DNA of 53,898 nt from Dechloromonas sp. (GTDB lineage: Bacteria; Pseudomonadota; Gammaproteobacteria; Burkholderiales; Rhodocyclaceae): assembly GCA_008933675.1 (NCBI GenBank), contig WBUO01000004.1:1-53898 (forward strand), in the 5' to 3' direction. Below, piece by piece: positions 2,845 through 31,107 of the stretch; positions within the stretch are counted from its first letter, which is position 1, and each line of letters starts with the position of its first letter. Made by a program: the position numbers and the translations under genes. The notes under the pieces are model-generated. The model saw only the letters and a list, made by a program, of their open reading frames with translations, searched no databases and was not told where the DNA came from.

Positions 2845-2857
2845 CCCTGAATTAAAT

Positions 2858-2906: not shown

Positions 2907-2943
2907 TAATTCAAACTTCGAGTGTGCATTAAGGTGCAATAAA

Positions 2944-3411: not shown

Positions 3412-3414
3412 GCG

Positions 3415-4026
3415 ATGGCCGGCCAGACCCGCGTCAATCTCGACTACCCGGCCGGCGCCACGCCGCTCGACGCCGACGAACTGGCCAGCCTGATTCCCGC
3501 GCACCTGACCACGCAGGGCGAACTCAACGAGTGGGAACAACTGAACATCGGCGAAGGCGACAAGTGGGCGCGCAAGCAGCGCAAGGACATCCTCGGCGAA
3601 GACTTCCTGCGCCAGCTCCACCGCCGGATGTTCGGCGAAACCTGGAAATGGGCCGGTGAATTCCGCAAGTCCGACAAGAACATCGGCGTCGATTGGCACT
3701 ACATCGGCGTCGAGTTGAAAAAACTGTTCGACGATGTGCGCTACCAGATCGAGCACGCCACCTTTCCCGCTGACGAAATCGCCGTCCGTTTCCATCACCG
3801 CCTCGTCGCCATCCATGCCTTTCCCAACGGCAACGGCCGCCATGCCCGGCTGATGGCCGACCTCCTCGCCGAACGCCTGGGGCAGCCGCGCTTCACCTGG
3901 GGCAGCCGTCGCCTGGTGAAGGACAGCCTCACTGACGCCAGCCCGATCCGGCGCGACTACATCGCCGCCCTGCAAGCCGCCGACGCCCGCGACATCGCCC
4001 CCCTGCTGGCCTTCGCCCGAAGCTGA
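3415..4026 (+). CDS. Mobile mystery protein B (Fic/Doc-family toxin-like protein)
   Basis: A 203-residue Fic-domain protein. Fic enzymes usually transfer AMP or another phosphate-containing group from a nucleotide to a target hydroxyl. The active-site loop is HAFPNGNGRHAR at residues 134-145. His134 is the catalytic base and the GNGR anion hole is intact, but the position that is Asp/Glu in canonical HxFx(D/E)GNGR motifs is Asn. The preceding beta-flap/helix region (FRKSDKNIGVDWHYI) and the N-terminal LTTQGELNEWEQLNI block match mobile mystery B proteins. It forms an operon with the upstream HTH gene (3-base gap) and is followed 14 bases later by a PD-(D/E)XK nuclease gene. Toxicity is inferred from the family. 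Confidence 0.85.
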   Translation: MAGQTRVNLDYPAGATPLDADELASLIPAHLTTQGELNEWEQLNIGEGDKWARKQRKDILGEDFLRQLHRRMFGETWKWAGEFRKSDKNIGVDWHYIGVELKKLFDDVRYQIEHATFPADEIAVRFHHRLVAIHAFPNGNGRHARLMADLLAERLGQPRFTWGSRRLVKDSLTDASPIRRDYIAALQAADARDIAPLLAFARS

Positions 4027-4040
4027 CAAGAAAGATCCCG

Positions 4041-5060
4041 ATGCCGGAAAACACGCCGCCCACCCAGAAAAATCCCGACTTCGCCGAAATCACCCGGCTC
4101 ATCGAAGCCGCCCGCCAGCGCGCCTACCTGGCCGTCAACACCGCGCTGATCGACCTCTACTGGCAGGTCGGCGCCTACCTCAGCGGCAAGATCAAGGCCG
4201 CCGAATGGGGCGAGGGCGTCGTCGAACAACTGGCGCAGCACCTGGCCAGCACGCAGCCGGGGCTGAAAGGCTTCACCCGCGCCAACTTGTTCCGCATGCG
4301 GCAGTTTTACGAGGCCTACCAGGCCCAGGAAAAAGTCGCACCACTGGTGCGACAATTGCCCTGGACCCATAACCTGATCATCCTCAGCCGCAGCAAGCGC
4401 CTGGAGGAACGCGCGTTCTACCTGAACATGGCGGCGCAGGAAAAATGGAGCAAGCGCGAGCTGGAGCGGCAGTTCGACACGGCGCTTTTCGAGCGCGTCG
4501 TCCTCAGCCCGGCAAAAGTGTCGCCACTGGTGACACAAATCCACCCCGACGCGGCCAGCGTGTTCAAGGACAGCTACCTGGTCGAATTCCTCGACCTGCC
4601 CGTCGCCCACCTCGAAAGCGAACTGCAGCGCGGCCTGTTGGCGCAACTGCGCCAATTCCTGCTCGAACTCGGCCGCGACTTCTGCTTCGTCGGCAGCGAA
4701 TATCCGCTGCAAGTCGGCCAGCAGGATTTTGCGCTCGACCTGCTCTTCTTCCATCGCGGCCTCAACTGTCTGGTCGCCATCGAACTGAAGACCACCCGCT
4801 TCTCGCCCGAACACCTCGGGCAACTCAACTTCTACCTGGAAGCCCTCGACCGCGACCACAAGAAGCCGCACGAAAACCCGGCCATCGGCTTGCTGCTCTG
4901 CGCCAGCAAGGACGACGAAGTGGCTGAATATGCGCTGAGCCGCAGCCTGTCGCCGGCCCTGGTGGCGCAATACCAGACCCAGTTGCCGGACAAGAAGCTG
5001 CTGCAGGCGAAACTGCATGAGTTCTACCTGGCGAATCTGGGCGAGGGGGACGCGGCATGA
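4041..5060 (+). CDS. DUF1016/YhcG-family PD-(D/E)XK nuclease
   Basis: A 339-residue two-domain protein. The N-terminal part (about 10-150; LIDLYWQVGAYLSGKI, WGEGVVEQLA, GFTRANLFRMRQFYE) is the DUF1016 N-terminal domain. The C-terminal part (about 190-335) is a PD-(D/E)XK nuclease fold with D233 (FALDLLFF) and the E248-L-K250 motif (VAIELKT). Members often sit inside type I restriction loci, as here: its stop overlaps the hsdS start by four bases (ATGA), so the two are translationally coupled. The intact catalytic triad suggests an active nuclease, plausibly part of the defence function. The substrate is unknown. Confidence 0.88.
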   Translation: MPENTPPTQKNPDFAEITRLIEAARQRAYLAVNTALIDLYWQVGAYLSGKIKAAEWGEGVVEQLAQHLASTQPGLKGFTRANLFRMRQFYEAYQAQEKVAPLVRQLPWTHNLIILSRSKRLEERAFYLNMAAQEKWSKRELERQFDTALFERVVLSPAKVSPLVTQIHPDAASVFKDSYLVEFLDLPVAHLESELQRGLLAQLRQFLLELGRDFCFVGSEYPLQVGQQDFALDLLFFHRGLNCLVAIELKTTRFSPEHLGQLNFYLEALDRDHKKPHENPAIGLLLCASKDDEVAEYALSRSLSPALVAQYQTQLPDKKLLQAKLHEFYLANLGEGDAA

Positions 5061-6400
5061 GTCGGTACAAGGCTTATCCGGCGTACAAGGATTCGGGGGT
5101 GGAGTGGGTTGGGGAAATTCCAGAGGATTGGGATATGTGGAAGATTTTTCATGCATGTCCTTCGATTGGAAGTGGAACAACTCCAAAATCGGATAGCGAT
5201 GACTACTATGGCGGAGATATTCCATGGATTACCACCGGTGAATTACGAGAAGGTATTGTTTTTCAAACCCAAAAGAAAGTTACTGAAAAGGCGTTAATTG
5301 ATATACCAACATTGCGGCTACACCCGAAAGGTTCTGTCGCTATTGCAATGTACGGAGCAACGATTGGACGCCTTGGCATATTGGGCAATGATGCGACGAC
5401 AAACCAAGCGTGCTGCGTAATGCCACCTTCCGAGGTGTTGCATGGAAAATATTTGTTTTATTGGCTGCACGCAAATCGCCAAGAAATAATAAATTTATCA
5501 TCTGGTGGCGGGCAGCCGAATGTAAGCCAAGAGAAGATTGCGTCATTAAAAGTCAGTGCGCCAAACAATCTTCTGCAGGAAAAAATCGCCGCCTTCCTCG
5601 ACCACGAAACCGCAAAGATCGACGCGCTGATCGAGAAGCAGCAGCGGTTGATTGAACTGCTCAAGGAAAAGCGTCAAGCGGTCATCAGCCATGCCGTGAC
5701 CAAAGGCCTCAACCCCAACGCCCCGATGAAGGATTCCGGGGTGGAATGGCTGGGTGAGGTGCCAGCGCATTGGGTGGTTCGTCGGTTAAAACACTCAGCC
5801 AGCCTGCAATCCGGAATTCCCAAGGGTAAGGACTTAACAGGCAAAGTTACGATTGAAGTGCCCATGTTGCGCGTGGCCAATGTTCAGGACGGCTACCTTG
5901 ATTTGTCTGAAGTTGACTCAATTCAAATAGAGCCATCGGAGCTTGGAAGATACGCTTTGAAATATGGCGATGTGCTGATGAACGAGGGTGGCGACAATGA
6001 CAAACTTGGTCGGGGAGCCGTCTGGAAGTCCGAAATAACTCCTTGCATCCACCAGAACCATGTTTTTTCAATTAGACCTGCTGACATTGAGCCGGATTGG
6101 CTTGATTTGGTAACTCGTGCCAGCTATGCCAAATATCATTTTTATCGAGTGGCAAAACAGAGCACAAACCTAGCTTCAATTTCCTCGACAAACATCAAGG
6201 AGACCCCGTTGGTAATTCCGCCAAAACAGGAACGAAAACAAATTTCCTCGCATATAAACGAGCAACTTCGGAAGTTTGATCTGCTTGAGAACAACGCAAA
6301 TGTGCAGATTGAGCTGCTTCAAGAGCGCCGCACCGCCCTAATCTCCGCCGCCGTCACCGGCAAGATCGACGTCCGCGACTGGCAGCCTGCCGCTGCCTGA
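5057..6400 (+). CDS. hsdS: Type I restriction specificity subunit HsdS
   Basis: A 447-residue specificity subunit with the typical circular two-half layout. Each half opens with the same motif (YKDSGVEWVGEIPEDW near residue 9; MKDSGVEWLGEVPAHW near 225), then a target recognition domain, then a long conserved helix (EKIAAFLDHETAKIDALIEK at the centre; a matching coiled coil ending in AAVTGKIDVRDW at the C-terminus). The two recognition domains (bases about 5130-5570 and 5790-6290) are visibly AT-richer than the conserved helices and flanking genes, as expected from recombinational swapping of specificity domains. It determines the bipartite DNA target for HsdM and HsdR and is coupled to the upstream nuclease gene. 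Confidence 0.94.
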   Translation: MSRYKAYPAYKDSGVEWVGEIPEDWDMWKIFHACPSIGSGTTPKSDSDDYYGGDIPWITTGELREGIVFQTQKKVTEKALIDIPTLRLHPKGSVAIAMYGATIGRLGILGNDATTNQACCVMPPSEVLHGKYLFYWLHANRQEIINLSSGGGQPNVSQEKIASLKVSAPNNLLQEKIAAFLDHETAKIDALIEKQQRLIELLKEKRQAVISHAVTKGLNPNAPMKDSGVEWLGEVPAHWVVRRLKHSASLQSGIPKGKDLTGKVTIEVPMLRVANVQDGYLDLSEVDSIQIEPSELGRYALKYGDVLMNEGGDNDKLGRGAVWKSEITPCIHQNHVFSIRPADIEPDWLDLVTRASYAKYHFYRVAKQSTNLASISSTNIKETPLVIPPKQERKQISSHINEQLRKFDLLENNANVQIELLQERRTALISAAVTGKIDVRDWQPAAA

Positions 6401-6430
6401 TTTCTTCCACTCTCCGACCCGAACCCAGCC

Positions 6431-9697
<3,267 letters not shown>

Positions 9698-10580: not shown

Positions 10581-12101
<1,521 letters not shown>

Positions 12102-12185: not shown

Positions 12186-12201
12186 CGCACGCCGCGTGCC
12201 A
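12186..12201 (-). promoter_or_regulatory. Candidate sigma-54 promoter for exaC
   Basis: On the minus strand, TGGCAC-GCGGC-GTGCG has a perfect -24 hexamer, the invariant GG-N10-GC spacing, and two mismatches in the -12 element (TTGCA expected). It lies about 85 bases before the exaC start. The core alone is moderate; support comes from the perfect palindrome about 130 bases upstream, which recurs at two better sigma-54 promoters in this window. Confidence 0.5.
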
Positions 12202-12318
12202 GTTCGGCCAATTTGCCCGGCATGTCTGGAAAAGCACGGTAATTCAGTAGCTTGGCTGAATATCCGGAAGGCGCCGGAGGCGAGCTGTCCGGTTGCTTGC
12301 TGAGCAAATGCACAAGCA

Positions 12319-12337
12319 CTGTTCATTTATGGAACAG
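12319..12337. promoter_or_regulatory. Candidate sigma-54 activator site (CTGTTC-N7-GAACAG)
   Basis: CTGTTCATTTATGGAACAG is a perfect 6-bp inverted repeat with a 7-base AT-rich centre. It sits about 130 bases upstream of the exaC -24 element, the usual distance for an enhancer-binding protein. The same motif with one change occurs at 23983-24001 between two perfect sigma-54 promoters. Confidence 0.55.
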
Positions 12338-16715: not shown

Positions 16716-17363
16716 TCAGGCCCCCACCGCGTGGTTGATGTCCACCAGGCCATGCCGTGCCGCCAGGTGGAGCAGTTTGAAATCGTTGTCGGCATCGAGC
16801 TTCTGCCGGATCAGCGTCAGGTAGTTGAGCACCGTCTTCGGACTCAGGTGCATGGTGCTGGCGATGCCGTTCGTCGATTCGCCATGTACCAGCATGCGCA
16901 GCACCTCGAATTCGCGCGGCGTCAGATGCGACAGCGCGCCGTCGCCGTCCACCGCCTGCTCGGCCAGCACCTGGGCGATCTCCGGCGAGAAGACGCGCTT
17001 TCCGGCAGCGATCCGCCGGATGCCGCCGATCACGTCGGCCGGCTCGCAATACTTGGTCAGGTAGCCCATGGCGCCGCTGCGCAGCGCCTGGGTGATGTGG
17101 CCGGCACCTTCGTGCATGGAGAGCACCAGTATCTTCAGGTCCGGCTGGCGGGCGAGCATGCCGCGGATGGCTTCGATGCCGCTGCTGCCGCGCAGGCTGA
17201 GGTCGACCAGGGCGACATCGGCCGGGCAGCGCAACGCCAGGGCGTTGGCCTCGTCGGCGCTGGCGGCCTCGCCGACCACCTGCAGGCCGGGCTCGGCATC
17301 GAGCAGGCGACGGTAGCCGTTCCTGACGACCGCATGGTCGTCGATCAGAATGATGCGAATCAT
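16716..17363 (-). CDS. NarL/LuxR-family response regulator (first two-component system)
   Basis: A 215-residue response regulator: a receiver domain (about 1-120; acidic pocket D8/D9, phospho-acceptor D54 in ALVDLSL, K near 104 in YLTKY) and a LuxR-type helix-turn-helix (about 148-210; LTPREFEVLRMLVHGESTNG). Its start overlaps the stop of the upstream kinase by four bases, so they are a coupled pair. It lies divergent from the Ca-type PQQ dehydrogenase gene. In Pseudomonas, regulators of this class (AgmR/ErbR/PedR) activate quinoprotein ethanol dehydrogenase genes, so that role is the likely one. Confidence 0.9.
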   Translation of the reverse strand: MIRIILIDDHAVVRNGYRRLLDAEPGLQVVGEAASADEANALALRCPADVALVDLSLRGSSGIEAIRGMLARQPDLKILVLSMHEGAGHITQALRSGAMGYLTKYCEPADVIGGIRRIAAGKRVFSPEIAQVLAEQAVDGDGALSHLTPREFEVLRMLVHGESTNGIASTMHLSPKTVLNYLTLIRQKLDADNDFKLLHLAARHGLVDINHAVGA

Positions 17364-18667
17364 GGTCTCTCCTCCTCTTGTCGTTCGCCGGCCAGCGGCA
17401 GGTCGACCTGCAGGGTCAGCCCGTCCGCGCCGCTGGTGATGGCCAGGCTGCCACCCACCATCGCCACCCTTTCTTCCATGCCGAGCAGACCGCCGCGCCG
17501 GCGCGTGCCCTCTGCCGGCAGGCCGCCTCCGTCGTCGGCGACGCTCAGCTGCAGCGTCGTCGCCGTCACCGCGATGCCGACCTGGCAGTGCCGCGCCCCG
17601 CTGTGCCGCACGACATTGGTCAGTGCTTCCTGCACCACGCGATACAGCGTCAGGGCAGCTGCCTCGCCCAGCTCCGGCAACTCGCCCGGTGCGAGCAGGC
17701 GGAACTCGATGCCACCGGCCCGTTGCTGCCAGCCGGCGATCAACTCGCGCAAGGCGCCGACCAGGGCGACGGCATCCAGTCCATGCGGCCGCAGACGCTT
17801 GAGCATGGCGCGCAATTGCTCGCCGCTGGTGCGTACATCGCGCCGCAGGTCGGCACCACATTCACCGATCTGCCTGGCGTCAAGCCGGTCTGCATTGCGC
17901 TCCAGATAGGCGGCGGTGACGCCGATTGCCGTCAGCGTCTGTCCCATCTCGTCATGCAAATCCCTTGCCAGTACCCGGCGTTCTTCCTCCTGGACGGCGA
18001 TCAATTGCCGCGCCAGCTGGCTCTGGGCGTCTCTTGCCGCGCCCAGCGCGGCCGCCAGTTCGTCGATGGCGCCGGCCACCCGGCGAAATTCGCGCAAGGC
18101 GAAAGGTGGCAGCGTCGCCGCCGTTTCACCGCGGGCCAGCCGCTGCAGACCGGCTTCCAGTTCGCGCACCGGTGACAGCGCCCGGTCCGCTGCCCACCAG
18201 GCGACCAGCAGAGTTGCTCCAGAAAAGAGCAACAGGGTGATGCAAAGTCGAACAGTGTCGCCCAGGCGTTCCTCGATTTCGGAGGCAGGATTGGGGGCAA
18301 GGTGCAGGTTTTGTCCGCCGAGTTGCAGCACTTGCCGACGGTCCTCGCCGACGGCGACGCCGAACCAGGCTGCCAGACGTCCGGCAAGCGCCGGCGGTTC
18401 GGCTGGCGGCGCGTCGTCCAGCGTGATGCTCAGATGACGCAGTTCGCCGCCGGCGATCATGGCGCGCAGCTGCCGGGCCGCCGCTTCGGGGGGCGGTCCG
18501 GGGGGCGAGAGGCCGGCCGCCAGCAGCACGCGGACCAGGCGTTCGGAAGCGTCGACCTCTGCTTCGATGTCGGCGCGCAGCGAATACAGGTTGATCAGCA
18601 TGGCCATCAGCAGCAGCCCGCCGAGCAGGGCGCCGAGATAGCCGACCAGTCTTCTGCGGAGATCCAT
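17360..18667 (-). CDS. NarL-type sensor histidine kinase (HisKA_3) (first two-component system)
   Basis: A 435-residue membrane kinase. TM1 is about residues 10-30; a short periplasmic region (about 31-138) has a proline-rich stretch; TM2 is about 140-160; then a HAMP-like segment; HisKA_3 with phospho-acceptor H238 in RDLHDEMGQ; HATPase_c with DDGGGLP and a GLLGME G-box. It partners with the response regulator whose start overlaps its stop. Located divergently 209 bases from the Ca-type PQQ dehydrogenase, it is analogous in position to sensor kinases of Pseudomonas ped/exa clusters that respond to alcohols or lanthanides. Which signal it reads cannot be told from the sequence. Confidence 0.9.
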   Translation of the reverse strand: MDLRRRLVGYLGALLGGLLLMAMLINLYSLRADIEAEVDASERLVRVLLAAGLSPPGPPPEAAARQLRAMIAGGELRHLSITLDDAPPAEPPALAGRLAAWFGVAVGEDRRQVLQLGGQNLHLAPNPASEIEERLGDTVRLCITLLLFSGATLLVAWWAADRALSPVRELEAGLQRLARGETAATLPPFALREFRRVAGAIDELAAALGAARDAQSQLARQLIAVQEEERRVLARDLHDEMGQTLTAIGVTAAYLERNADRLDARQIGECGADLRRDVRTSGEQLRAMLKRLRPHGLDAVALVGALRELIAGWQQRAGGIEFRLLAPGELPELGEAAALTLYRVVQEALTNVVRHSGARHCQVGIAVTATTLQLSVADDGGGLPAEGTRRRGGLLGMEERVAMVGGSLAITSGADGLTLQVDLPLAGERQEEERP

Positions 18668-18876: not shown

Positions 18877-20748
18877 ATGGAATCGAACCGGTTCAATCCC
18901 CGCCAGACCCTTCTGGCCGCCTTCGTGGCCGCCACTTTCTGCACATCGGCCGCCGCTGCCAGCAAGGTCAGCTGGGAGGACATCCTCAACGACGACAAGA
19001 CGACGCAGGACGTGCTGTCCTACGGTCTCGGCCTGAAGGCGCAGCGCTTCAGCCCGCTGGCCAAGGTCAATACGAAGAACGTCGAGCATCTGGTGCCGGC
19101 CTGGAGCTTCTCCTTCGGCGGCGAGAAGCAGCGCGGCCAGGAAGCGCAGGCCCTGGTGCACGACGGGGTGATCTACGTCACCGCCTCGTATTCCCGCATC
19201 TTCGCCATCGATGCACGTAGCGGCAAGCGGCTCTGGGAATACGAGGCCCGCCTGCCCGACGACATCCGCCCGTGCTGCGACGTGATCAACCGCGGTGCTG
19301 CCATCTACGGCGACAAGGTTTACTTCGGTACCCTCGATGCGGCCATCGTCGCCCTCAACAAGGACACCGGCAAGGTCGTCTGGCGCAAGAAGTTCGGCGA
19401 CCACAAGATCGGCTACACGATGACCGGCGCCCCCTTCGTGGTCAAGGACGAGAAGAGCGGCAAGGTGCTGCTGGTGCATGGGTCCTCGGGCGACGAATTC
19501 GGCGTCGTCGGCTGGCTGTTCGCCCGCGACCCGGAGACCGGCGAGGAAGTCTGGGCCCGCCCGATGGTCGAGGGCCACATGGGCCGCCTGAACGGCAAGG
19601 AGAGCACGCCGACCGGCGACGCCAAGGCGCCGAGCTGGCCGGAGGGCCCGGACGGCAAGAAGGTCGAGGCCTGGAATCACGGCGGCGGCGCCCCGTGGCA
19701 GACGGCCAGTTACGACGTGGACAAGAACATGGTGGTGATCGGTACCGGCAACCCGGCGCCGTGGAACACCTGGCACCGGACCAAGGAAGGCGACGATCCG
19801 CGCAACTGGGACAGCCTGTTCACCTCCGGCCAGGCCTATGTCGATGCCAGCACCGGCGAGCTCAAGGGCTTCTTCCAGCACACCCCGAACGATGCCTGGG
19901 ACTTCTCCGGCAACAATTCGGTGGTGCTGTTCGAATACAAGGACCCGAAGACCGGCAAGCTGGTCAAGGCCTCGGCCCACGCCGACCGCAACGGCTATTT
20001 CTTCGTCACCGACCGCGAGAAGCTGACCAACGGCGCCGGCTACCCGAACAAGCCGACCTCGCTGATCGGCGCCTGGCCGTTCGTCGACGGCATCACCTGG
20101 GCAAAGAGCTGGAACCTGCAGACCGGCAAGCCGAACATCGTCGACGGCCAGCATCCGCCGAAGCCGAAGGAGGGTGCCGACAAGGGCGAATCGATCTTCG
20201 TCTCGCCGCCCTTCCTCGGCGGCACCAACTGGATGCCGATGAGCTACAGCCAGCAGACCGGCCTCTTCTACATCCCGGCCAACCACTGGGCGATGGATTA
20301 CTGGACCGAAAAGCTGACCTACAAGGCCGGCTCCGCCTACCTCGGCCAGGGTTTCCGCATCAAGCGCCTGTTCGACGACCACGTCGGCACCTTGCGCGCG
20401 CTGGACCCGAAGACCGGCAAGATCGTCTGGGAGCACAAGGAGAAGTTCCCGCTCTGGGCCGGCACCATGACCACCGCCGGCGGCCTGCTGTTCACCGGCA
20501 CCTCGGACGGCTACGTCAAGGCCTTCGACGCGAAGAACGGCAAGGAACTGTGGAAGTTCCAGACCGGCTCCGGCGTGGTTTCCGTGCCGATCACCTGGGA
20601 AATGGACGGCGAACAGTACATCGGCATCCAGTCCGGTTACGGCGGCGCCGTGCCGCTGTGGGGCGGCGACATGGCCGACCTGACCAAGCAGGTGACGCAG
20701 GGCGGCTCGATGTGGGTGTTCAAGCTGCCGAAGTCGCTGAAGCAGTAA
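18877..20748 (+). CDS. pedE: PQQ-dependent alcohol dehydrogenase, Ca-type (PedE/ExaA-like)
   Basis: A 623-residue periplasmic quinoprotein: a signal peptide (about 1-28) and an eight-bladed propeller with repeated tryptophan-docking motifs (e.g. SGKRLWEYEARLP, GKVVWRKKFG, GKIVWEHKEKFP). It has the vicinal disulfide Cys pair in [10 protein letters not shown] (133-134), which contacts PQQ, and the catalytic Asp342 in AWDFSGNN. The residue two after the catalytic Asp is Ser344. In lanthanide-dependent enzymes it is Asp, so this should be a Ca-dependent ethanol-type dehydrogenase. It oxidises alcohols to aldehydes and feeds electrons to a cytochrome c (a pedF-like gene lies downstream). The ATG 18877 follows AGGAGAC. 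Divergent from a NarL-type two-component system. Confidence 0.93.
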   Translation: MESNRFNPRQTLLAAFVAATFCTSAAAASKVSWEDILNDDKTTQDVLSYGLGLKAQRFSPLAKVNTKNVEHLVPAWSFSFGGEKQRGQEAQALVHDGVIYVTASYSRIFAIDARSGKRLWEYEARLPDDIRPCCDVINRGAAIYGDKVYFGTLDAAIVALNKDTGKVVWRKKFGDHKIGYTMTGAPFVVKDEKSGKVLLVHGSSGDEFGVVGWLFARDPETGEEVWARPMVEGHMGRLNGKESTPTGDAKAPSWPEGPDGKKVEAWNHGGGAPWQTASYDVDKNMVVIGTGNPAPWNTWHRTKEGDDPRNWDSLFTSGQAYVDASTGELKGFFQHTPNDAWDFSGNNSVVLFEYKDPKTGKLVKASAHADRNGYFFVTDREKLTNGAGYPNKPTSLIGAWPFVDGITWAKSWNLQTGKPNIVDGQHPPKPKEGADKGESIFVSPPFLGGTNWMPMSYSQQTGLFYIPANHWAMDYWTEKLTYKAGSAYLGQGFRIKRLFDDHVGTLRALDPKTGKIVWEHKEKFPLWAGTMTTAGGLLFTGTSDGYVKAFDAKNGKELWKFQTGSGVVSVPITWEMDGEQYIGIQSGYGGAVPLWGGDMADLTKQVTQGGSMWVFKLPKSLKQ

Positions 20749-21950: not shown

Positions 21951-23729
21951 TCAGCTCTTGTGCAGCTTGAACACCCAGACCGAACCGCCCTGTTCGAGGA
22001 AGTTCACGCGTTTGGCGACATCGCCGCCCCACAGCGGCACGGCACCGCCCCAGCCGGTGGTGACGGCGATCATCTGCTCGCCGTCCTGTTCCCAGGTGAC
22101 CGGCGGGGCGACGATGCCGGTACCGGTCTGGAAGGACCACAGTTCCTTGCCGGTCTTCGCATCGACGCCCTTCAGGAAGCCTTCCGGGGTGCCGTAGAAA
22201 ATCAGCCCGCCGGCGGTGGTCAGCACGCCACCCCAGAGCGGGGCGTAGTTCTTGTTTTCCCAGACGATCTTGCCGGTCGCCGGATCGACGGCGCGCAGCA
22301 CGCCGATGTGGTCGTCGTGGATGGCCTTGATGGTGAAGCCGGCGCCCAGGTAGGCGGCGCCCTTCTTGTAGGAGACCGGCTCGTTCCAGATGTCCATCGA
22401 CCACTCGTTGGCCGGCACGTAGAAGAGGCCGGTCTGCGGGCTGTAGGCCATCTGCTGCTGGTTCTTGCCGCCGAGGAAGGAGGGCGCCGAGAAGACGACC
22501 TTGCCCTTCTTGCCATCGACGCCGGCTGCCGGATCGCCCGGCCGGCCTTCTTCGATGTAGTTCGGACGGCCGGTTTCCAGATTGATGCCGGTTGCCCAGG
22601 TGATCTTCTTGACGAAGGGGAAGGCATTCAGCAGCTTGCCGTTGGTCCGGTCATTGACGTAGAAGAAGCCGTTGCGATCGGCCTTGCCACCGGCCTTGAC
22701 GATCTTGCCGGTCTTCGGGTCCTTGTAGTCGAAGGAAACGAATTCGTTGACGCCGTCGAAGTCCCAGCCGTCGTGCGGGGTGTTCTGGTAATGCCAGGCG
22801 ATCTTGCCGGTGTCGGCGTCGATGGCGACGGTGGACGAGGAGAACAGGTTGTCGCCGGGGCGCAGGTGGCTGTTCCACGGCGCCGGGTTGCCGGTGCCGG
22901 CGAAGATCAGGTTGGTCTCCGGATCGTAGGTGGCGCCGTTCCAGGTGGCGGCGCCGCCGGTCTTCCACAGGTCGCCGGACCAGCTGGCGTTGAGCGTGCC
23001 GGAGATGCCGTTCTCGATCTCCTTGCCGTCTTCGTAGCGATAACCCATGTGGCCTTCGACGGTCGGCCGCGTCCACACCAGTTTGCCGGTCAGCGGGTCG
23101 CGTGCGTCGATGCGGCCGACGGCGCCGAATTCGCCACCGGAGACGCCGGTGATGACCTTGCCGCGGGCGATGATCGGCGCGGCGGTAGCCGAGTAGCCGG
23201 CGGCGTAGTCGCCGAGCTTTTCCTTCCAGACGACCTTGCCGGTGTCCTGGTTGAGGGCGACCAGCTGGGCATCGAGCGTGGCGAAGATGACCAGGTTGCC
23301 GTACAGCGCGGCGCCGCGGTTGATCACGTCGCAGCAGGGCATGATGCCGTCGGGCAGGCGGTGCTCGTACTTCCACAGCTTCTTGCCGGACTTGGCGTCG
23401 ATGGCGAACAGCCGGCTGTAGGAGGCGGTGACGAACATCTTGCCGTTGTGGATCACCGGCTGCGATTCCTGGCCGCGCTGCTTCTCGCCGCCGAAGGACA
23501 TCGACCAGGCCGGTACCAGGTTCTTCACCGTCCTGGTGTTGATCGCCGTCATCGGGCTGAAGCGCTGGCCCTGGGTGCCGAGGCCGAAGCTGACGACGTC
23601 ACCGGTGGTTTTCGCATCGTTGAGGATGTCGGCGTCGGTGACCTCGGCGCTGGCCGGACTGCCGGCGAAGGCCAGCGCGACGGCCAGGGCGAGGCCGAAG
23701 CGCCGCTGGGGAAGGATTTGACTATGCAT
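21951..23729 (-). CDS. pedH: PQQ-dependent alcohol dehydrogenase, lanthanide-type (PedH-like)
   Basis: A 592-residue secreted quinoprotein paralogous to the upstream pedE-like enzyme: a signal peptide (about 1-28), propeller tryptophan motifs, the vicinal Cys pair in [10 protein letters not shown] (132-133) and catalytic Asp323 in GWDFDGVNE. The residue two positions later is Asp325. An Asp there supplies the extra ligand that marks lanthanide-dependent XoxF/PedH enzymes, so this one should need La-Nd-range lanthanides. It lies convergent with pedE-pedF and divergent from the SoxYZ-led operon. A perfect sigma-54 promoter sits about 130 bases upstream of the start. The start ATG (23729) is preceded by AAGGAGAC. 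Confidence in lanthanide dependence rests on this residue signature. Confidence 0.93.
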
Positions 23730-23857: not shown

Positions 23858-23873
23858 TGCAAGGCCTGTGCCA
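23858..23873 (-). promoter_or_regulatory. Sigma-54 promoter for pedH
   Basis: Minus strand TGGCAC-AGGCC-TTGCA matches the -24/-12 consensus TGGCAC-N5-TTGCW with no mismatch and the GG-N10-GC spacing. It predicts a start about 117 bases before the pedH ATG. A palindrome at 23983-24001 lies about 120 bases upstream. Confidence 0.82.
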
Positions 23874-23982
23874 TCGCCCGGAAAAGTGCCGGCGGCCGCG
23901 CCATGTCCGGCAACTCGCCCGATTCGCTGCCGGCCGTGGTCTTCTGCCCGGGCGTTGCGGCGGCTGCTGCAAATGAAGACAG

Positions 23983-24001
23983 CTGTTCAAAAGTTGCACA
24001 G
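23983..24001. promoter_or_regulatory. Shared activator site between divergent sigma-54 promoters (CTGTTC-N7-GCACAG)
   Basis: CTGTTCAAAAGTTGCACAG has the same architecture as the exaC-side palindrome CTGTTC-N7-GAACAG, with one mismatched position. It sits about 122 bases upstream of the pedH -24 element and about 98 bases upstream of the SoxYZ-side -24 element, suitable for one activator serving both directions. Confidence 0.6.
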
Positions 24002-24086
24002 CGAAACTGTTGCGTCTGCCGGCCGGGTTTCGGCAAGCCGCCGCCATGCCCGGCAGGCAGCGGCTCGGCGCCTGATCGTCAGGTTG

Positions 24087-24102
24087 TGGCACGGGGTTTG
24101 CA
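24087..24102 (+). promoter_or_regulatory. Sigma-54 promoter for the SoxYZ/TonB/receptor operon
   Basis: TGGCAC-GGGGT-TTGCA is a perfect match to the sigma-54 consensus with correct GG-N10-GC spacing, 43 bases before the SoxYZ-like ATG. It is divergent to the equally perfect pedH promoter. Confidence 0.85.
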
Positions 24103-24144: not shown

Positions 24145-24915
24145 ATGAAGTTTCCGATGACCATCGCCGCCATCGCTCTTGCCGCCCTGATGCCGGCGCC
24201 CGAGGCGGCCGCCCTGCAGGAGGCCGGCGATCCGCTCGCCTCGGCGCGCTGGGTGGACATGCAGCGCACCGTCCTGGGCGGAGCGCCGATGCTGTTCGAT
24301 CCGCGGGTCAAGGTGATTGCCCCGGCGACGGCCGAGAATCCGCTGCAGGTGCCGGTCACCGTCGATGCCAGCGGCCTGGGCAAGGTGGTCGAGGTGATCG
24401 TCTTCGCCGACTTCAATCCGATCATCGAAGTGCTGCGCTTCTATCCCGAGGCGGTGCCCGCCTACCTCGGTTTCCGCGTCAAGCTGCAGCAGTCGACGCC
24501 GGTGCGGGCCGCGGCGCGCACGGCCGACGGCCTCTGGCATGTCGGCGGCACCTGGGTGAATACCGTCGGCGGCGGATGTTCGGCGCCGACAGCCGGCAGC
24601 GCCAGCAAGGACTGGCAGCGGCGGCTCAACCAGGTGAGCGGCCGGCAGTGGTCGGAAGGGGAGCTGGCCGGGCGTCTCCGTCTGCGCATCGAGCACCCGA
24701 TGGATACCGGGCTGGTCGCCGGCATTCCCGCCTTCCACCTCGAGGAAATCGAGTTCCGCGATGCTGCCGGTCAGCGTCTGATGCGTCTGCAGACCGCCGA
24801 ACCGGTCAGCGAGAATCCGGTGTTCACGCTGCAGCGCGGCGCCGTTGACGGTCCGGTCGAAGCCCGTGGCCGCGACAACAACGGCAACACCTTCTCGGCG
24901 CGGATCGCACCATGA
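24145..24915 (+). CDS. Quinoprotein dehydrogenase-associated SoxYZ-like carrier
   Basis: A 256-residue periplasmic fusion of a SoxY-like N-terminal half and a SoxZ-like C-terminal half, after a signal peptide (about 1-23). The SoxY carrier Cys is seen as C145 in VGGGCSAP; in true SoxY the sulfur-carrying Cys sits in a GGCGG tail. The SoxZ half has IEHPMDTGL and the beta strands through the C-terminus. This family occurs next to PQQ dehydrogenases rather than with thiosulfate oxidation, and its chemistry is not settled. Here it is the first gene after a perfect sigma-54 promoter and overlaps the metallohydrolase gene by four bases. Homologues accompany pedE/pedH in Pseudomonas putida. Confidence 0.88.
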   Translation: MKFPMTIAAIALAALMPAPEAAALQEAGDPLASARWVDMQRTVLGGAPMLFDPRVKVIAPATAENPLQVPVTVDASGLGKVVEVIVFADFNPIIEVLRFYPEAVPAYLGFRVKLQQSTPVRAAARTADGLWHVGGTWVNTVGGGCSAPTAGSASKDWQRRLNQVSGRQWSEGELAGRLRLRIEHPMDTGLVAGIPAFHLEEIEFRDAAGQRLMRLQTAEPVSENPVFTLQRGAVDGPVEARGRDNNGNTFSARIAP

Positions 24916-25946
24916 ACTGCATCCAGTTGACGCAGGCGCGCCGCGCGGCAGCAGACCGGGAAGTCCGGCAACGGCTGTCGGCCTCGTTGTCCCGGCATCT
25001 CGAGGTCAGCCTGGGCAGGTTGCTGATGCTGCTGGCCGCTGTCGTTCCCGGCGTCGCTGCCGCCGAGTTCGACTACGCCCTGCGTGCCCAGCGCGTCGCC
25101 GACGGCGTCTACGCCTTCATCGGCAAGACCGAGGATTTCACGCCGGCCAACGGCGGCAACATCGTCAATACCGGCTTCATCGTCGCCCCCGGCGGGGTCA
25201 TCGTCATCGACAGCGGTCCCTCGCGGCGTTACGGCGAGCAGATGCGCCGGGCCATCGCCGCCGTCAGCGAGCGGCCGCCGGTGCTGGTCATCAACACGCA
25301 TCACCATCCCGACCACTTTCTTGGCAACCAGGCATTCGGCGATGTGCCGCTGGCGGCGCTGCCGGCCACCATCGAAGGCATTGCCGGCGAAGGCAATGCC
25401 TTTGCCGAAAACCTGTTCCGCCTGACCGGCGACTGGATGAAGGGGACCGAGGTGCGCGTGCCGCAACGTCCGCTGGCGGCCGGCCGCACCGAGGTCGCCG
25501 GCCGCCGGTTGCGCCTGCTGGCGCTCGACGGCCATACCGGCGCCGACCTGGCGATCTACGACGAGGCCAGCGGCGTGCTGTTCGCCGGCGATCTGGCCTT
25601 CTTCCAGCGCGCGCCGACCACGCCGCATGCCGACATCGGCCGCTGGCTGGCCGCTCTCGATCAACTGGCGGCGATCACCCGCGAGCCGGGTTTCCATGCC
25701 CTGGTGCCGGGGCATGGCCCGCTGGCGCGCGATGCCGCACCACTGCTCCAGACGCGTGCCTGGCTGACCTGGCTGCAGGGAGCGCTGCGCCGGGCGGCCG
25801 CTGCGGGGCTGGACATGAACGAGGCGCTGGCCCGGCCGTTGCCGGCCGAGTTTGCCGAACTGCCGGTGGCCGCCAGCGAATACCGGCGCTCGGTCGGCCA
25901 TCTGTTTCCTGCCGTGGAGCAGGAAGTCCTCGGTGGCGGGCATTGA
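24912..25946 (+). CDS. Quinoprotein relay system zinc metallohydrolase (metallo-beta-lactamase fold)
   Basis: A 344-residue exported metallo-beta-lactamase-fold protein. An N-terminal extension and hydrophobic export segment (about 37-52, LLMLLAAVVPGVAAAEF) precede the domain, which starts at about 60 (VADGVYAFIGKTEDFTPANG). Metal ligands: the HxHxDH motif in NTHHHPDHFLGN, then His in DGHTGAD, Asp in FAGDLAFF and His in VPGHGPL; all are present. The family is named for co-occurrence with quinoprotein dehydrogenases and SoxYZ-like carriers and is SoxH-related. The substrate is unknown, possibly the carrier-bound group. Start ATG 24912 overlaps the SoxYZ stop; the next gene, tonB, starts one base after its stop. 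Confidence 0.87.
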   Translation: MNCIQLTQARRAAADREVRQRLSASLSRHLEVSLGRLLMLLAAVVPGVAAAEFDYALRAQRVADGVYAFIGKTEDFTPANGGNIVNTGFIVAPGGVIVIDSGPSRRYGEQMRRAIAAVSERPPVLVINTHHHPDHFLGNQAFGDVPLAALPATIEGIAGEGNAFAENLFRLTGDWMKGTEVRVPQRPLAAGRTEVAGRRLRLLALDGHTGADLAIYDEASGVLFAGDLAFFQRAPTTPHADIGRWLAALDQLAAITREPGFHALVPGHGPLARDAAPLLQTRAWLTWLQGALRRAAAAGLDMNEALARPLPAEFAELPVAASEYRRSVGHLFPAVEQEVLGGGH

Positions 25947-25947
25947 G

Positions 25948-26688
25948 ATGGCGCTGCAGCTGCGTCCTTACCGGCCGGCGGCGGCGATGGATCGCCGCCT
26001 GGCCGGCCTGGTGCTGCTCTCGCTGTTGCTGCATGGCGGCCTCTTCGTGCTGATGGCCGGGACGCGTCCGGCTGCCGCCCCGGCTTTGCCCAGGCTGCTG
26101 GCGACGCTGCACCTGGCGTCGCCTGTCCCATCCGGAACGCTGCCCACGGCCTCCCTGCCGGCAGCGCTCCCAGCGAAGGTCCGGCAGTCGCCGGCTGGCG
26201 CGGCGAACCGGCCGGTTCCGCGACAGCCTCGGACTGCCGGGCCGGCCAGCGTCGGCGGCTTGCCTGTGGCCGGGGAAGCGGTGGCGGCGAGTACGACCGC
26301 GGGCGAAAGGATGAGCGACGTCAGTCCTGCGGCGGCTGCCGCCGAACCTGTCGCCGCGCCGCCGGCCTCGGCTGCCAGCCTGACGGCCGATGCACTGGCT
26401 GCCTACCGTCAGCGCCTGAGCGAACTGCTTGCCGGCCAGCGGGACTATCCGCGGCTTGCCGCGCTGCGCGGCTGGCAGGGTGAAGTCCGCCTGCGTCTGC
26501 GTGTTGCCCGGCGCGGCAACCTGCTTGCCGTCGATCTCGAGCGTTCGAGCGGCTTTGCCGTGCTCGACCAGCATGCCCAGGCCGTACTGGCCGATCTCGG
26601 CGCCTTGCCGCCGCCACCCGATCTGCTCGAGGGCAGCGAAATCCAGGTTGTCGTGCCGATCACCTACAAACTCAATAAAACAACATGA
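25948..26688 (+). CDS. tonB: Dedicated TonB energy transducer
   Basis: A 246-residue TonB-family protein: a short cytoplasmic basic N-terminus, one TM (about 14-33, RLAGLVLLSLLLHGGLFVLM), an Ala/Pro-rich periplasmic linker (about 34-140), and a C-terminal TonB domain (about 150-240; GWQGEVRLRLRVARRGNLLA and VPITYKL). The His in the TM (LLLHGG) is the conserved SHLS-like position. It couples the ExbB/ExbD proton motor to an outer-membrane receptor; no exbBD lies nearby, so a shared motor is assumed. It is locked between the metallohydrolase gene and a TonB-dependent receptor (four-base overlap at the longer receptor start), so it is probably dedicated to that receptor. Confidence 0.9.
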   Translation: MALQLRPYRPAAAMDRRLAGLVLLSLLLHGGLFVLMAGTRPAAAPALPRLLATLHLASPVPSGTLPTASLPAALPAKVRQSPAGAANRPVPRQPRTAGPASVGGLPVAGEAVAASTTAGERMSDVSPAAAAAEPVAAPPASAASLTADALAAYRQRLSELLAGQRDYPRLAALRGWQGEVRLRLRVARRGNLLAVDLERSSGFAVLDQHAQAVLADLGALPPPPDLLEGSEIQVVVPITYKLNKTT

Positions 26689-26699
26689 GAGACAAAACC

Positions 26700-29012
26700 A
26701 TGCGCCACCGCCCGCCCCTGTCCCTGGCCGCCCTTGCCCTCGCTGCCGCCTTCGCCCCGGCCGGCGCCGAAGAGGGCGTGATCCGGATGGAGACCATCGA
26801 GGTGATCGGCAACTCACCGCTCGCCGGCATCGGCATTCCGCGCCAGCAGGTGCCGGCCAACGTCCAGGTTGCCGGCGAACGGCAACTTGCCGAATCGGCA
26901 ACGCTGAACCTGCCGGAGTTCATGGCCCGCCAGCTGCCCAGCGTCAATATCAACGAAGTGCAGGGCAACCCCTTCCAGCAGGACGTCAATTACCGCGGCT
27001 TCACCGCCTCGCCGCTGCTCGGCACGGCCCAGGGCCTGTCGGTGTATCTCGACGGGGTGCGCATCAATGAAGCTTTCGGCGATACCGTGAACTGGGATCT
27101 GCTGCCCCAGGCGGCGCTCGCCGGCGTCGAGCTGATGCCCGGTTCCAACCCGCTGTTCGGCCTGAACACGCTGGGCGGTGCGCTGGCGCTGCGCAGCCGG
27201 AACGGCTTCGACCATGCCGGCAGCGCCATCGAGCTGGCGGCCGGCAGTTTCGCCCGGCGCACGCTGGAACTCGAGCATGGCGGGCACAGCGGCAGCTTCG
27301 GCTGGTACGTCGCCGGCGAAGGCTTCGCCGAGGACGGCTGGCGCGACTACTCGAAGTCGGATGCCGGCCGCTTTTTCGCCAAGCTGTCGCACCGCAGCAC
27401 GACCGGCGAGGCCGATCTCAGCCTGCTGCGGGCGCGCAGCAAGATGACCGGGAACGGCCTGCTGCCGCAATCGATGTTCGCCGCCGACCACGAGCAGATC
27501 TTCACCCACCCCGACCAGACGCGTAACGACCTGACGCAGCTGGCCTTCTCCGGCCGCCTGTGGTTGAGCGACAGCCAGAGCCTGTCGGCCAGTGCCTACC
27601 ACCGGCGCAACACGACGCGGACGCTCAATGGCGATGCCAACGACGATTTCGAGGACGGCCCCTTCGATGGCGTGGCGAACGAGGAGTCCGGCGCCAACAA
27701 CCGTACCCGCACCGTGCAGCGTGGCAGCGGCGCGGCGCTGCAGTGGAACCTGGTTGCCGAGCGCCATCAATTGACGATCGGAGCATCCTACGACCGGGCC
27801 CGGATGCGCTTCCGCCAGACGCAACAGATCGGGGTGCTCGATGCCAGCCGCGGCGTCGCCGAAGTCGAGGAAGAAGAGATGGAAAATGCCATCCGCGGCA
27901 CCACGGACACCGCCAGCCTGTTCATCACCGATACCTTCGCCCTGGCACCGACGCTGCACCTGACCGCTTCGGCGCGCTACAACCGCAGCCACGTCACCAC
28001 TTTCGACATCCTCGAGCGCGAAGCACCCAATCTCGACGGCGACCACCATTACCGCAAGTTCAACCCGGCCCTCGGCCTGAGCTGGCAGATCGCCCCGGCA
28101 CTCAACGCCTATGCCGGCTTCAGTCAGGGCAGCCGGGTGCCGACGCCGATCGAACTGGGTTGCGCCGACCCGGCCAACCCCTGCACGCTGCCCAATGCCA
28201 TGGCCGCCGATCCCTACCTCAAGCAGGTCGTCGCCCGCACGCTGGAAGCCGGTCTGCGCGGCACGCTGGCCGGCGGCATCGGGTGGAATGCCGGGGTCTA
28301 CCGCACCGTCTCGCACGACGACATCCTCTTCGTCGGTACCTCGACCAGTGCCGGCTACTTCACCAACTTCGGCAAGACGCAGCGCCAGGGCCTCGAACTC
28401 GGCGTCAACGGCCGCCATCGCAGCCTCGACTGGTTTGCCGCCTACAGCTGGCTGCACGCCACCTTCCAGTCGGCAGCCTGCCTGCTGGCCGAGAACAACA
28501 GTTCGCGCGGTACCGCCGCCGCCTGCACGGCCAACGGTCAGGACGACGAAATCCTGGTGAAGAAGGGCAATCGTCTGCCCGGCCTGCCCGAGCACAGCCT
28601 GAAGCTCGGTCTTTCCTGGCGGGCCGTCGACTGGCTGCGCCTGGGCGGCGACCTGCAGGCCTTTTCCGGCCAGTACGCCCGCGGCAACGAGAACAATGCC
28701 CACCGCGCCGGCAGCGCTACCGATGCCTTCGGCAATCAGCGCACCTTCGACGGATCGGGCAAGACCGCCGGCTACGCCATCCTCAACCTCAACGCCGAGG
28801 CCGACCTGGGGCGCGGCTGGCAGGTCTTTGCCCGGGTGAACAATGTCTTCGACAAGCGCTACGCGACGGCGGCGGCGCTGGCCGAAAACCCGTTCGACGC
28901 CGGCGGCGCCTTCCAGATCGATTCCGGCGACTGGCGACGGGAAACCTTCGTGGCCCCGGGGGCGCCGCGTGCCGCCTGGCTCGGCGTGCGCTATCGCTTC
29001 GGCGGCAAGTAA
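26700..29012 (+). CDS. TonB-dependent outer-membrane receptor in the quinoprotein operon
   Basis: A 770-residue TonB-dependent receptor: a signal peptide (about 1-23, LSLAALALAAAFAPAGA), a plug domain (about 30-170; YLDGVRINEAFGDTVNWDLL and NPLFGLNTLGGALAL blocks) and a 22-strand barrel to the terminal aromatic RYRFGGK. Start: ATG 26700 follows GAGAG at a reasonable spacing; ATG 26685, overlapping the tonB stop, is an alternative giving five more residues. The substrate is unknown. Position behind a sigma-54 promoter with SoxYZ, metallohydrolase and its own TonB, divergent from a lanthanide-type dehydrogenase, makes a lanthanide chelate or PQQ plausible. A two-component system follows two bases after its stop. 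Confidence 0.88.
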   Translation: MRHRPPLSLAALALAAAFAPAGAEEGVIRMETIEVIGNSPLAGIGIPRQQVPANVQVAGERQLAESATLNLPEFMARQLPSVNINEVQGNPFQQDVNYRGFTASPLLGTAQGLSVYLDGVRINEAFGDTVNWDLLPQAALAGVELMPGSNPLFGLNTLGGALALRSRNGFDHAGSAIELAAGSFARRTLELEHGGHSGSFGWYVAGEGFAEDGWRDYSKSDAGRFFAKLSHRSTTGEADLSLLRARSKMTGNGLLPQSMFAADHEQIFTHPDQTRNDLTQLAFSGRLWLSDSQSLSASAYHRRNTTRTLNGDANDDFEDGPFDGVANEESGANNRTRTVQRGSGAALQWNLVAERHQLTIGASYDRARMRFRQTQQIGVLDASRGVAEVEEEEMENAIRGTTDTASLFITDTFALAPTLHLTASARYNRSHVTTFDILEREAPNLDGDHHYRKFNPALGLSWQIAPALNAYAGFSQGSRVPTPIELGCADPANPCTLPNAMAADPYLKQVVARTLEAGLRGTLAGGIGWNAGVYRTVSHDDILFVGTSTSAGYFTNFGKTQRQGLELGVNGRHRSLDWFAAYSWLHATFQSAACLLAENNSSRGTAAACTANGQDDEILVKKGNRLPGLPEHSLKLGLSWRAVDWLRLGGDLQAFSGQYARGNENNAHRAGSATDAFGNQRTFDGSGKTAGYAILNLNAEADLGRGWQVFARVNNVFDKRYATAAALAENPFDAGGAFQIDSGDWRRETFVAPGAPRAAWLGVRYRFGGK

Positions 29013-29014
29013 GC

Positions 29015-30463
29015 ATGCGCCCGCCTGCCGCCCGCCTTCCGTCCGCCCGCATCGCCTGGCGCCTGCCTGCCGGGGCCGCCGGCGTTGCGCAGCGCCACGC
29101 CAGCATCTTCCCGCGGCTTCGCCGCCTCCGCCTGCACACCCGCATCAGCCTCGTCCTCACCGGGCTGGCCGCCAGCCTGCTGCTGGTGCTTGCGGCGCTC
29201 TGGCTGCATGGCGCGCGGCAGGGCATCCACGAAGAGGTCGAGGCGGCGAGCCGGGTCTCCACGCAGTGGCTGACGGCGCTGGCCGGCGAACTGCAGGCGG
29301 CGCCGGCTGAACGCCTGCTTGCCGTCGTCCGCCCCTTGGGCCGCATCCGCGCCAACGAACTGCAGGTGCAGGCGGCGGCGAGCGATAAAGCAGACGGCCG
29401 TCCGCCGCCGAGCTACAAGGCCGGGCGCCGGGTGCCGGAATGGTTCGCCGGCCTGCTGCAGCCGGACTTCGTGCCGCGCAGCGTGGCCGTCGGCGAGTTG
29501 CGGCTGGTGCTCGTTCCCGACGCCTCGCGTGCCATCATCGATGCCTGGGACGATCTGCTGGCCATGGCCGGCTGGGCGCTGGCCCTGCTTGCTCTGCTTC
29601 ACCTGCTGACCGGCAAGGCGCTCGCCTGTGCCTTGCGCCCGCTGGAGCAGGTGATGCAGGCACTCGACCGTACCGGCCGCGGGCGCTTCGATACCCGTCT
29701 GCCGGTCTTCGCGACGCCGGAGCTGGGCCGCCTGTCGCGTGCCTTCAACGGCATGGCCGACCGCCTGGCGGCTGCCGTCGACGACAACGTCCGCCTGGAA
29801 ACCGAACGCGAGCTCGCCGACCGCCTGCAGGCCAGTCTGCAGCAGGAGCGCCGGCTGATCGCCCGCGAGCTGCACGACGAACTGGCTCAGGGCATTACCG
29901 CCGTGCGCGCGCTGGCCGGTGCCATTGTTCAGCGTACCGGCGAACAGCCGGCACTGCAGGGGCCGGCGCAGAGCATCGTCGCCGTCACCGGCGAGATGCA
30001 GCAGGGTGTCCGCGCCATCCTGCACCGTCTGCGTCCGCCGCCCGGCGACAAGCTGGGGGAGGACATGGCGCGCCTGCTGGCTGGCTGGCGCATGCAGCAC
30101 CCGGCCATCGTCCTGCATGCCGAGCTGGCGCTCGGCAGCCGGCCGCTGGCCGGCCAGGTGGCCCAGGCCGTCGTCCGCATCGTCCAGGAAGGGCTGACCA
30201 ATGTCGCCCGCCATGCCGCGGCCAGCCGAGTCGATCTGGTCGTTGCCCGGGCGGCCGGCCAGCTGCAGCTCTGTCTGCGCGACGACGGCCGCGGGGCGGC
30301 CGGCGGCCCTTCGGCCGAAGCCGGCTGCGGCCTCGGTCTGGCCGGCATGGCCGAGCGCGTCGCGGCGCTCGGCGGCCGCCTCGAATTCACCCGGCCGGCC
30401 GGCGGCGGCTTCGCGCTGCACGCCTGGCTGCCTGATCAAGCGCTCACGGAGGAAGTGTCATGA
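29015..30463 (+). CDS. NarL-type sensor histidine kinase (second two-component system)
   Basis: A 482-residue kinase with an unusually long Arg/Ala/Pro-rich cytoplasmic N-terminus (about 1-42), TM1 (about 44-66), a periplasmic sensor (about 67-180, including a lysine-rich loop), TM2 (about 181-200), HAMP (about 200-255), HisKA_3 with phospho-acceptor H287 in RELHDELAQG, and HATPase_c (DDGRGAAGG, GLGLAGMAE). Start ATG 29015 lies two bases after the receptor stop, and its stop overlaps the regulator start (ATGA). Being the cell's readout inside the SoxYZ-TonB-receptor unit, it may sense the transported ligand or the dehydrogenase state. Position and family resemble PedS2-like lanthanide-switch kinases, but the signal is not visible. 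Confidence 0.88.
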   Translation: MRPPAARLPSARIAWRLPAGAAGVAQRHASIFPRLRRLRLHTRISLVLTGLAASLLLVLAALWLHGARQGIHEEVEAASRVSTQWLTALAGELQAAPAERLLAVVRPLGRIRANELQVQAAASDKADGRPPPSYKAGRRVPEWFAGLLQPDFVPRSVAVGELRLVLVPDASRAIIDAWDDLLAMAGWALALLALLHLLTGKALACALRPLEQVMQALDRTGRGRFDTRLPVFATPELGRLSRAFNGMADRLAAAVDDNVRLETERELADRLQASLQQERRLIARELHDELAQGITAVRALAGAIVQRTGEQPALQGPAQSIVAVTGEMQQGVRAILHRLRPPPGDKLGEDMARLLAGWRMQHPAIVLHAELALGSRPLAGQVAQAVVRIVQEGLTNVARHAAASRVDLVVARAAGQLQLCLRDDGRGAAGGPSAEAGCGLGLAGMAERVAALGGRLEFTRPAGGGFALHAWLPDQALTEEVS

Positions 30464-31107
30464 ACCCGAAACTGCATGGTGTCCGCGTCCTGCTCGCCGA
30501 CGATCACGCCGTCGTCCGCCTCGGCTTTCGCCTGCTGCTGGAAGGCGCCGGCGCATGCGTCGTCGGCGAGGCGGACAGCGGCGAGAATGCCATCCGCGGC
30601 TATGCCGAGACGACGCCCGACCTGCTGGTCATGGATGTCTCGATGCCCGGCAGCGGCGGTCTTGCCGCCCTCGAACGCCTGCTGGTCTGGGAGCCGAAAG
30701 CCCGCGTGCTGATGCTCTCGGCGCATGATGACGACATCGTGCCGGTGCGCGCCCTGCGTCTCGGTGCCGCCGGCTACCTGTGCAAGCGCGCCGATCCCGG
30801 CGAATTCCTGCACGCCGTCGGCCAGATCGCCGCCGGCCGCCGCTACCTCGATCCGCAACTGGCGCAGACGGTGGCGCTTGCCCAGCTGTCCGGTTCGGCG
30901 GAACCGCTCGGGACGCTGACCGAAAAGGAGCTTGCCGTCTTCCTGAAGCTGGCGGTCGGCCGTTCGGTCAACGAGGTGGCTGCCGATTTCTGTCTGAGCC
31001 CGTCCACGGTCGGCACTCATCTCTATCACATCAAGCAGAAGCTCAACGTGCAGAACGCCGCCGAACTGACGCTGGTCGCCGTGCGCAACGGCCTGATCGA
31101 GGCGTGA
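30460..31107 (+). CDS. NarL/LuxR-family response regulator (second two-component system)
   Basis: A 215-residue response regulator paired by a four-base overlap with the upstream kinase. Receiver: D14/D15 acidic pair, phospho-acceptor D59 in LLVMDVSMPG, Lys near 108 (YLCKR). LuxR-type HTH (about 150-210): LTEKELAVFLKLAVGRSVNE then SPSTVGTHLYHIKQKL. It is a paralogue in architecture of the regulator at 16716-17363 but clearly divergent in sequence, so the island has two separate NarL-type outputs. It may control pedE, pedH, or the receptor and pqqU-like genes. The next gene begins immediately after its stop. Confidence 0.9.
   Translation: MNPKLHGVRVLLADDHAVVRLGFRLLLEGAGACVVGEADSGENAIRGYAETTPDLLVMDVSMPGSGGLAALERLLVWEPKARVLMLSAHDDDIVPVRALRLGAAGYLCKRADPGEFLHAVGQIAAGRRYLDPQLAQTVALAQLSGSAEPLGTLTEKELAVFLKLAVGRSVNEVAADFCLSPSTVGTHLYHIKQKLNVQNAAELTLVAVRNGLIEA

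Follow-up and report, generated by a model that had tools for sequence, protein, structure and literature searches.

We propose that sigma-54 and an AcoR-family activator act together at a bidirectional control region (23858-24102), where they very probably co-activate pedH, the gene of a lanthanide-type PQQ dehydrogenase, and the divergent SoxYZ/TonB run, with exaC and a cytochrome c550-like operon belonging to the same regulon. The region lies in a stretch of 53,898 nucleotides from Dechloromonas sp. (contig WBUO01000004.1), here called the window. The assembly that contains it comprises 530 contigs and 4.87 Mb; the named genomes closest to it are MAGs and strains of Dechloromonas and Azonexus, which we take to be Rhodocyclales. 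A preliminary description had assigned both promoters to one enhancer-binding protein, and this idea is strongly supported by the conservation of the cores and tandem sites in related sequences. Shared sigma-54 control of the two promoters is likewise supported, but a regulon confined to them appears too narrow, as exaC and the cytochrome c550-like operon would have to be added (Table 1).

Table 1. Genes and candidate regulatory elements of the window
Feature	Position	Strand	Basis
exaC, acetaldehyde dehydrogenase	10581..12101	-	NF050026 945.4 bits, cut-off 900
sigma-54-like core TGGCACGCGGCGTGCG upstream of exaC	12186..12201	-	match, conserved in relatives
weaker enhancer-type site TGTGCATTTGCTCAGCA upstream of exaC	12298-12314	-	within 12298..12336 pair
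enhancer-type site TGTTCCATAAATGAACA upstream of exaC	12320-12336	-	match, conserved in relatives
PQQ-dependent alcohol dehydrogenase, fits PedH/lanthanide type	21951..23729	-	TIGR03075 777 bits; WDFDG motif
sigma-54 (-24/-12) core TGGCACAGGCCTTGCA, putative promoter of the lanthanide-type PQQ dehydrogenase	23858..23873	-	exact match, conserved in relatives
candidate enhancer site A, 17-bp imperfect dyad TGCTGCAAATGAAGACA	23965..23981	.	conserved block, 19 nt before site B
candidate enhancer site B, 17-bp dyad TGTTCAAAAGTTGCACA	23984..24000	.	conserved; palindrome CTGTTC-N7-GCACAG adds one base per side
sigma-54 (-24/-12) core TGGCACGGGGTTTGCA, putative promoter of the SoxYZ-like/metallohydrolase/TonB/TonB-receptor run	24087..24102	+	exact match, conserved
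quinoprotein dehydrogenase-associated SoxYZ-like carrier	24145..24915	+	TIGR04557 above NCBIfam cut-off
quinoprotein relay system zinc metallohydrolase 1	24912..25946	+	TIGR04558 above NCBIfam cut-off
TonB-type protein	25852..26688	+	PF03544; mechanical ORF, true start probably further in
TonB-dependent receptor, in presumed operon	26685..29012	+	PF00593, PF07715
NarL-type response regulator, further down the plus-strand run	30460..31107	+	PF00072, PF00196

Lanthanide-type PQQ alcohol dehydrogenases are distinguished by an aspartate two residues past the catalytic aspartate. The minus-strand dehydrogenase fits this type, because its WDFDG motif (at residue 322) provides that aspartate, whereas WDFSG stands at this place in the second PQQ enzyme of the window (18877-20748), which fits the calcium type. 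The SoxYZ-like, metallohydrolase, TonB and TonB-receptor genes presumably form a single transcript, and a second NarL-type regulator is encoded in the cluster at about 16716-17360. The left part of the window (1438-9697) carries a HipA-like gene together with genes for the specificity and restriction subunits of type I restriction-modification.

Both cores had been described as exact TGGCAC-N5-TTGCA matches, and they are indeed found at 23858-23873 (minus strand) and 24087-24102 (plus strand), where they are the sole exact matches of the window and show the GG at -24, the GC at -12 and the fixed spacing of the sigma-54 consensus. When one mismatch is allowed, the window holds four matches, compared with a shuffle mean of 1.04; a one-mismatch core at 17955-17970 on the minus strand, within a histidine kinase gene, is probably a chance match. 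TGGCACN5TTGCW occurs exactly 16 times in the whole assembly and the reversed control pattern once, and four of the 16 matches make two back-to-back pairs, the 23858/24087 pair and one on contig C236. RpoN is encoded in the same genome (PF04552, 222.9 bits).

The arrangement is conserved among relatives. Of 516 confirmed relatives, the best 80, all from named genomes, were scored with core weights set from the sigma-54 consensus. Among these, the back-to-back pair is present in 52 of the 63 loci with a divergent dehydrogenase, a count of loci that share descent and are not independent events. No locus among the 63 lacks both cores, and 11 lack one of the two at the threshold. The pair is found in none of the 11 loci without a dehydrogenase at the divergent position, one of which has a single core, and in four of six loci that were counted apart, their contigs ending less than 2 kb upstream without a dehydrogenase. 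Among 1,600 dinucleotide shuffles, none contained a core pair and 40 a single core. A relatives search gave a SoxYZ-like gene in 27 of 60 genomes and the back-to-back pair in 22 of 28 loci, with G021 scored as a miss even though L167, a contig whose match position is identical, shows the pair. Core-pair loci include Zoogloea, Thauera, Aromatoleum, Parazoarcus and Azoarcus. In 24 aligned loci of the genus, the mean top-base frequency is 0.88 and 0.85 for the two cores and 0.81 and 0.90 for the two candidate activator sites, compared with 0.50 for the remaining sequence between the cores.

These sites depart from the single shared palindrome that had originally been proposed. CTGTTC-N7-GCACAG is present at 23983-24001, one mismatch away from a perfect dyad, but the alignment of relatives shows the conserved element to consist of two tandem 17-bp dyads with a 19-nt period, and the palindrome covers only half of it. 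At up to three mismatches, the palindrome motif has 18 matches in the window where 17.3 are expected, that is, it occurs at chance level, and support for an activator site therefore comes from conservation; on both grounds the view of a single palindrome was abandoned. The tandem (score of at least 14, 19-nt period) is found in 54 of the 63 divergent-dehydrogenase loci and is missing at this period in nine, and it is present in none of the 11 loci without the dehydrogenase, in four of the six that are cut off and in none of the 1,600 shuffles. As the site profile was derived from the 24 genus loci, the scores of Dechloromonas and Azonexus tandems are not independent of it, whereas those of the Zoogloea, Thauera and Aromatoleum relatives are. 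On a Variovorax plasmid, a single sigma-54 core and a single site of this type accompany a PQQ dehydrogenase gene (L221, 6766-6870), hinting at a spread of this sequence arrangement beyond Rhodocyclales. A perfect CTGTTC-N7-GAACAG, which the preliminary description does not mention, is present upstream of exaC (12319-12337). The six other genomic occurrences of TGTTCN7GNACA were set aside, as nothing closer than a loose core-like match is found near them.

The exaC reading frame extends mechanically to 12326, but the ExaC model begins at its residue 79, and the start at 12101 was read from the sequence. Site TGTTCCATAAATGAACA lies 135 bases from the exaC core, start to start. At the exaC loci of relatives, 18 of 29 have a core scoring 13 bits or more, compared with 14 of 870 shuffles, and at looser thresholds for core and site the two occur together in 18 of 29 loci and in none of the 870 shuffles. 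The site lies at -133 to -135 from the core in 12 of the 29, one of the 12 (G018) being weak. With the 17-bp profile, the exaC pair (13.8) comes only third within the window, and one of ten mononucleotide shuffles reached 20.0; the claim for exaC therefore rests on conservation.

PF00158 has 25 matches in the genome, about 18 of them strong. One, on contig C236 (L050), is a GAF-AAA+-HTH_8 protein encoded divergently from a cytochrome c gene that we name PedF/c550-like by its resemblance. An intact relative (L110, 658 aa) has GAF, PF00158, AAA lid and HTH_8 domains and no receiver match. The genome's own copy consists of two ORFs that carry AcoR-family domains in overlapping frames (L050 2018-2920 and 2832-3998, minus strand), a split that may be either an assembly error or a real frameshift. 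Between the activator and cytochrome c genes lies the second exact back-to-back core pair (L050 4104-4119, minus; 4191-4206, plus). Both of these cores are kept in 19 of 24 activator loci and one or both are missing in five; the 24 do not include L120, which has an incomplete frame at a contig end. In 21 aligned loci, a tandem TGCT...GGGCA-N2-TGYTACGTTATGRARCA is situated downstream of the activator's core and ahead of its start codon. The activator probably, or perhaps, activates its own gene, and since the tandem lies downstream of the core, it could also repress it.

The activator (at least 77% identity) and the SoxYZ-like gene are both present in 24 of 36 genus genomes, one SoxYZ match among them (G006) being a fragment at a contig end, and both are absent from 10. 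The two discordant genomes are G003 with SoxYZ only (76% complete) and G035 with the activator only (86% complete). Activator, exaC and SoxYZ genes share one contig, spread over about 17-35 kb, in nine genomes (G002, G005, G008, G010, G012, G016, G029, G031, G034). The recognition helix is SRNTL in all 25 proteins of this first AcoR class. Some genomes have further AcoR-type proteins (53-58% identity) adjoining exaC, and six of these (G008-C15, G011, G014, G020, G030, G058) carry SRQTL, in a comparison that omits the activators of G042 and G055. TGTGACA occurs upstream of exaC in all six cases with an SRQTL neighbour and in none of 19 other in-genus exaC promoters, a comparison that includes L092 (the exaC of G021), which is absent from the 29-locus count; the exaC promoter of G055 is without TGTGACA. 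G008 possesses two exaC copies (C11 and C15; L222 and L223); their neighbours belong to different AcoR classes, and each copy has the site type that goes with its own neighbour. The exaC-adjoining activator of G048 has SRNTL, and the exaC beside it has no TGTGACA upstream and a site, TGTCCCATTTTGGGACA, unlike that of the first class; the helix alone therefore does not set the site. Co-occurrence, linkage and the co-variation of helix and site suggest indirectly that an AcoR-type protein may bind the dyads, and the AcoR-family activator is the likely protein at the tandem.

We infer the following mechanism from sequence, including binding, looping, activation, autoregulation and the extent of the operon. 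The AcoR-family protein, with its GAF, AAA+ sigma-54 activator and Fis-type HTH domains, would bind both tandem 17-bp dyads between the promoters, and looping would bring it to RNA polymerase-sigma-54 at the two cores, which face outward and lie about 85-120 bp off on each side. The lanthanide-type PQQ dehydrogenase and the SoxYZ/metallohydrolase/TonB-receptor run would thereby be induced together, and exaC and the cytochrome c550-like operon would be driven by the same activator, as would, probably, the activator gene itself, resulting in one alcohol-to-acetate oxidation regulon. An alcohol or aldehyde may be the signal for the activator; the AcoR family is defined in part by a response to acetoin or acetaldehyde.

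Other readings of the same sites have to be weighed. The sigma-54 promoters could be real and the tandem dyads be bound by one of the NarL/LuxR-type regulators of the cluster (30460-31107 or about 16716-17360), which we regard as improbable. Two such genes are at hand, and Azospirillum exaA is reportedly also preceded by a 17-bp dyad, but sigma-54 polymerase requires an AAA+ activator. Moreover, the tandem-like pair of L194 (18.1, period 20) is found where the retrieved DNA contains neither regulator, the tandems of L203 and L218 occur where no close relative of the 30460 regulator is found (a relative of the 16716 regulator is present), and the exaC site follows the class of the adjoining AcoR, even between two copies in one genome. 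A precedent for a LuxR-type protein is exaA of Azospirillum brasilense, for which sigma-54 and the LuxR-type EraR are named (J Bacteriol 2017, 199:e00035-17, as cited in excerpts of PMC6115532), and EraR with RpoN was used as a positive two-hybrid pair (excerpts of PMC12826043). However, the two Azospirillum plasmid loci that we read, from A. lipoferum and A. thermophilum, have no sigma-54 core or such site at the dehydrogenase. It is very unlikely that a different enhancer-binding protein acts at the tandem sites. Roughly 18 are encoded in the genome, sites alone name no protein, and the co-occurrence count covers the AcoR-type protein alone among them; yet it is the AcoR-type gene that has a similar tandem and a back-to-back core pair, that occurs together with the gene set and that is linked to it in the nine genomes. 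That the -24/-12 matches are due to chance, with sigma-70 promoters under NarL-type control as in Pseudomonas, whose ped genes are described under two-component control (excerpts of PMC12997753), is hardly credible in view of the conservation of cores and sites and the shuffle controls, even if consensus matches are no proof.

Among 27 loci with relatives of the calcium-type gene at 18877-20748 (at least 75%), none has a sigma-54 core on the gene's own strand, and eight (L188, L189, L191, L207, L208, L211, L217, L218) have one upstream on the opposite strand, facing away. Each of these eight also carries, on the side that the core faces, a relative of the 16716 NarL-type regulator. Tentatively, the choice between calcium- and lanthanide-type dehydrogenase in Rhodocyclales might be split by sigma factor. 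The lanthanide-type enzyme and the relay and TonB-uptake genes could then be under sigma-54 and a self-activating AcoR-type protein with a shared tandem enhancer, which we consider possible but somewhat less likely than not, and, with the same reserve, the calcium-type enzyme could remain on other promoters.

Coordination of rare-earth uptake with periplasmic alcohol oxidation is known mostly from Pseudomonas and methylotrophs. If true, the sigma-54/AcoR regulon in the Dechloromonas, Zoogloea, Thauera and Aromatoleum relatives would provide, for denitrifying and wastewater bacteria, a circuit open to genetic tests, and would assign a regulator and a target set to genes that are often annotated by family only. 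The sigma-54 layer had been expected to be new, a claim that has to be narrowed. No AcoR control of a lanthanide-type enzyme appears among the literature matches listed; no title among the full-text matches listed concerns a PedH-type gene controlled by AcoR or sigma-54, which does not imply absence from print. Sigma-54 at Azospirillum exaA and a link between AcoR, RpoN and ExaC in Ralstonia, however, are already in print.

We know of no shared divergent control region at Azospirillum exaA. That gene resembles the case described here in being a PQQ alcohol dehydrogenase gene on a sigma-54 promoter, but the reported regulator is of the LuxR type (excerpts of PMC6115532), compared with the AcoR family proposed here; full exaA induction also requires the ECF factor RpoE6 (excerpts of PMC12826043). 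PedS2/PedR2 of Pseudomonas putida is similar in governing calcium-type and lanthanide-type PQQ dehydrogenases (excerpts of PMC6115532 and PMC12997753). It differs in being a two-component system, for which the role of a specific sigma factor was called unknown in 2018 (excerpts of PMC6115532), whereas here sigma-54 cores are found at the lanthanide-type gene and on the own strand of none of the 27 calcium-type genes. In the excerpts of PMC12997753, the one sigma-54 passage found is on CbrB, and in those of PMC13390443 sigma-54 is mentioned only for a hydroxybutyrate gene. Another close parallel is Ralstonia solanacearum GMI1000, where an AcoR-type activator adjoins exaC and growth on ethanol depends on rpoN1 (excerpts of PMC4676750); activator, sigma-54, ExaC and ethanol growth are the features in common. 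There, control by AcoR is predicted, and exaC is the only target named in the excerpts (PMC4676750), whereas in the Dechloromonas genome the lanthanide-type dehydrogenase, the SoxYZ/TonB run and the cytochrome c gene carry similar sites as well.
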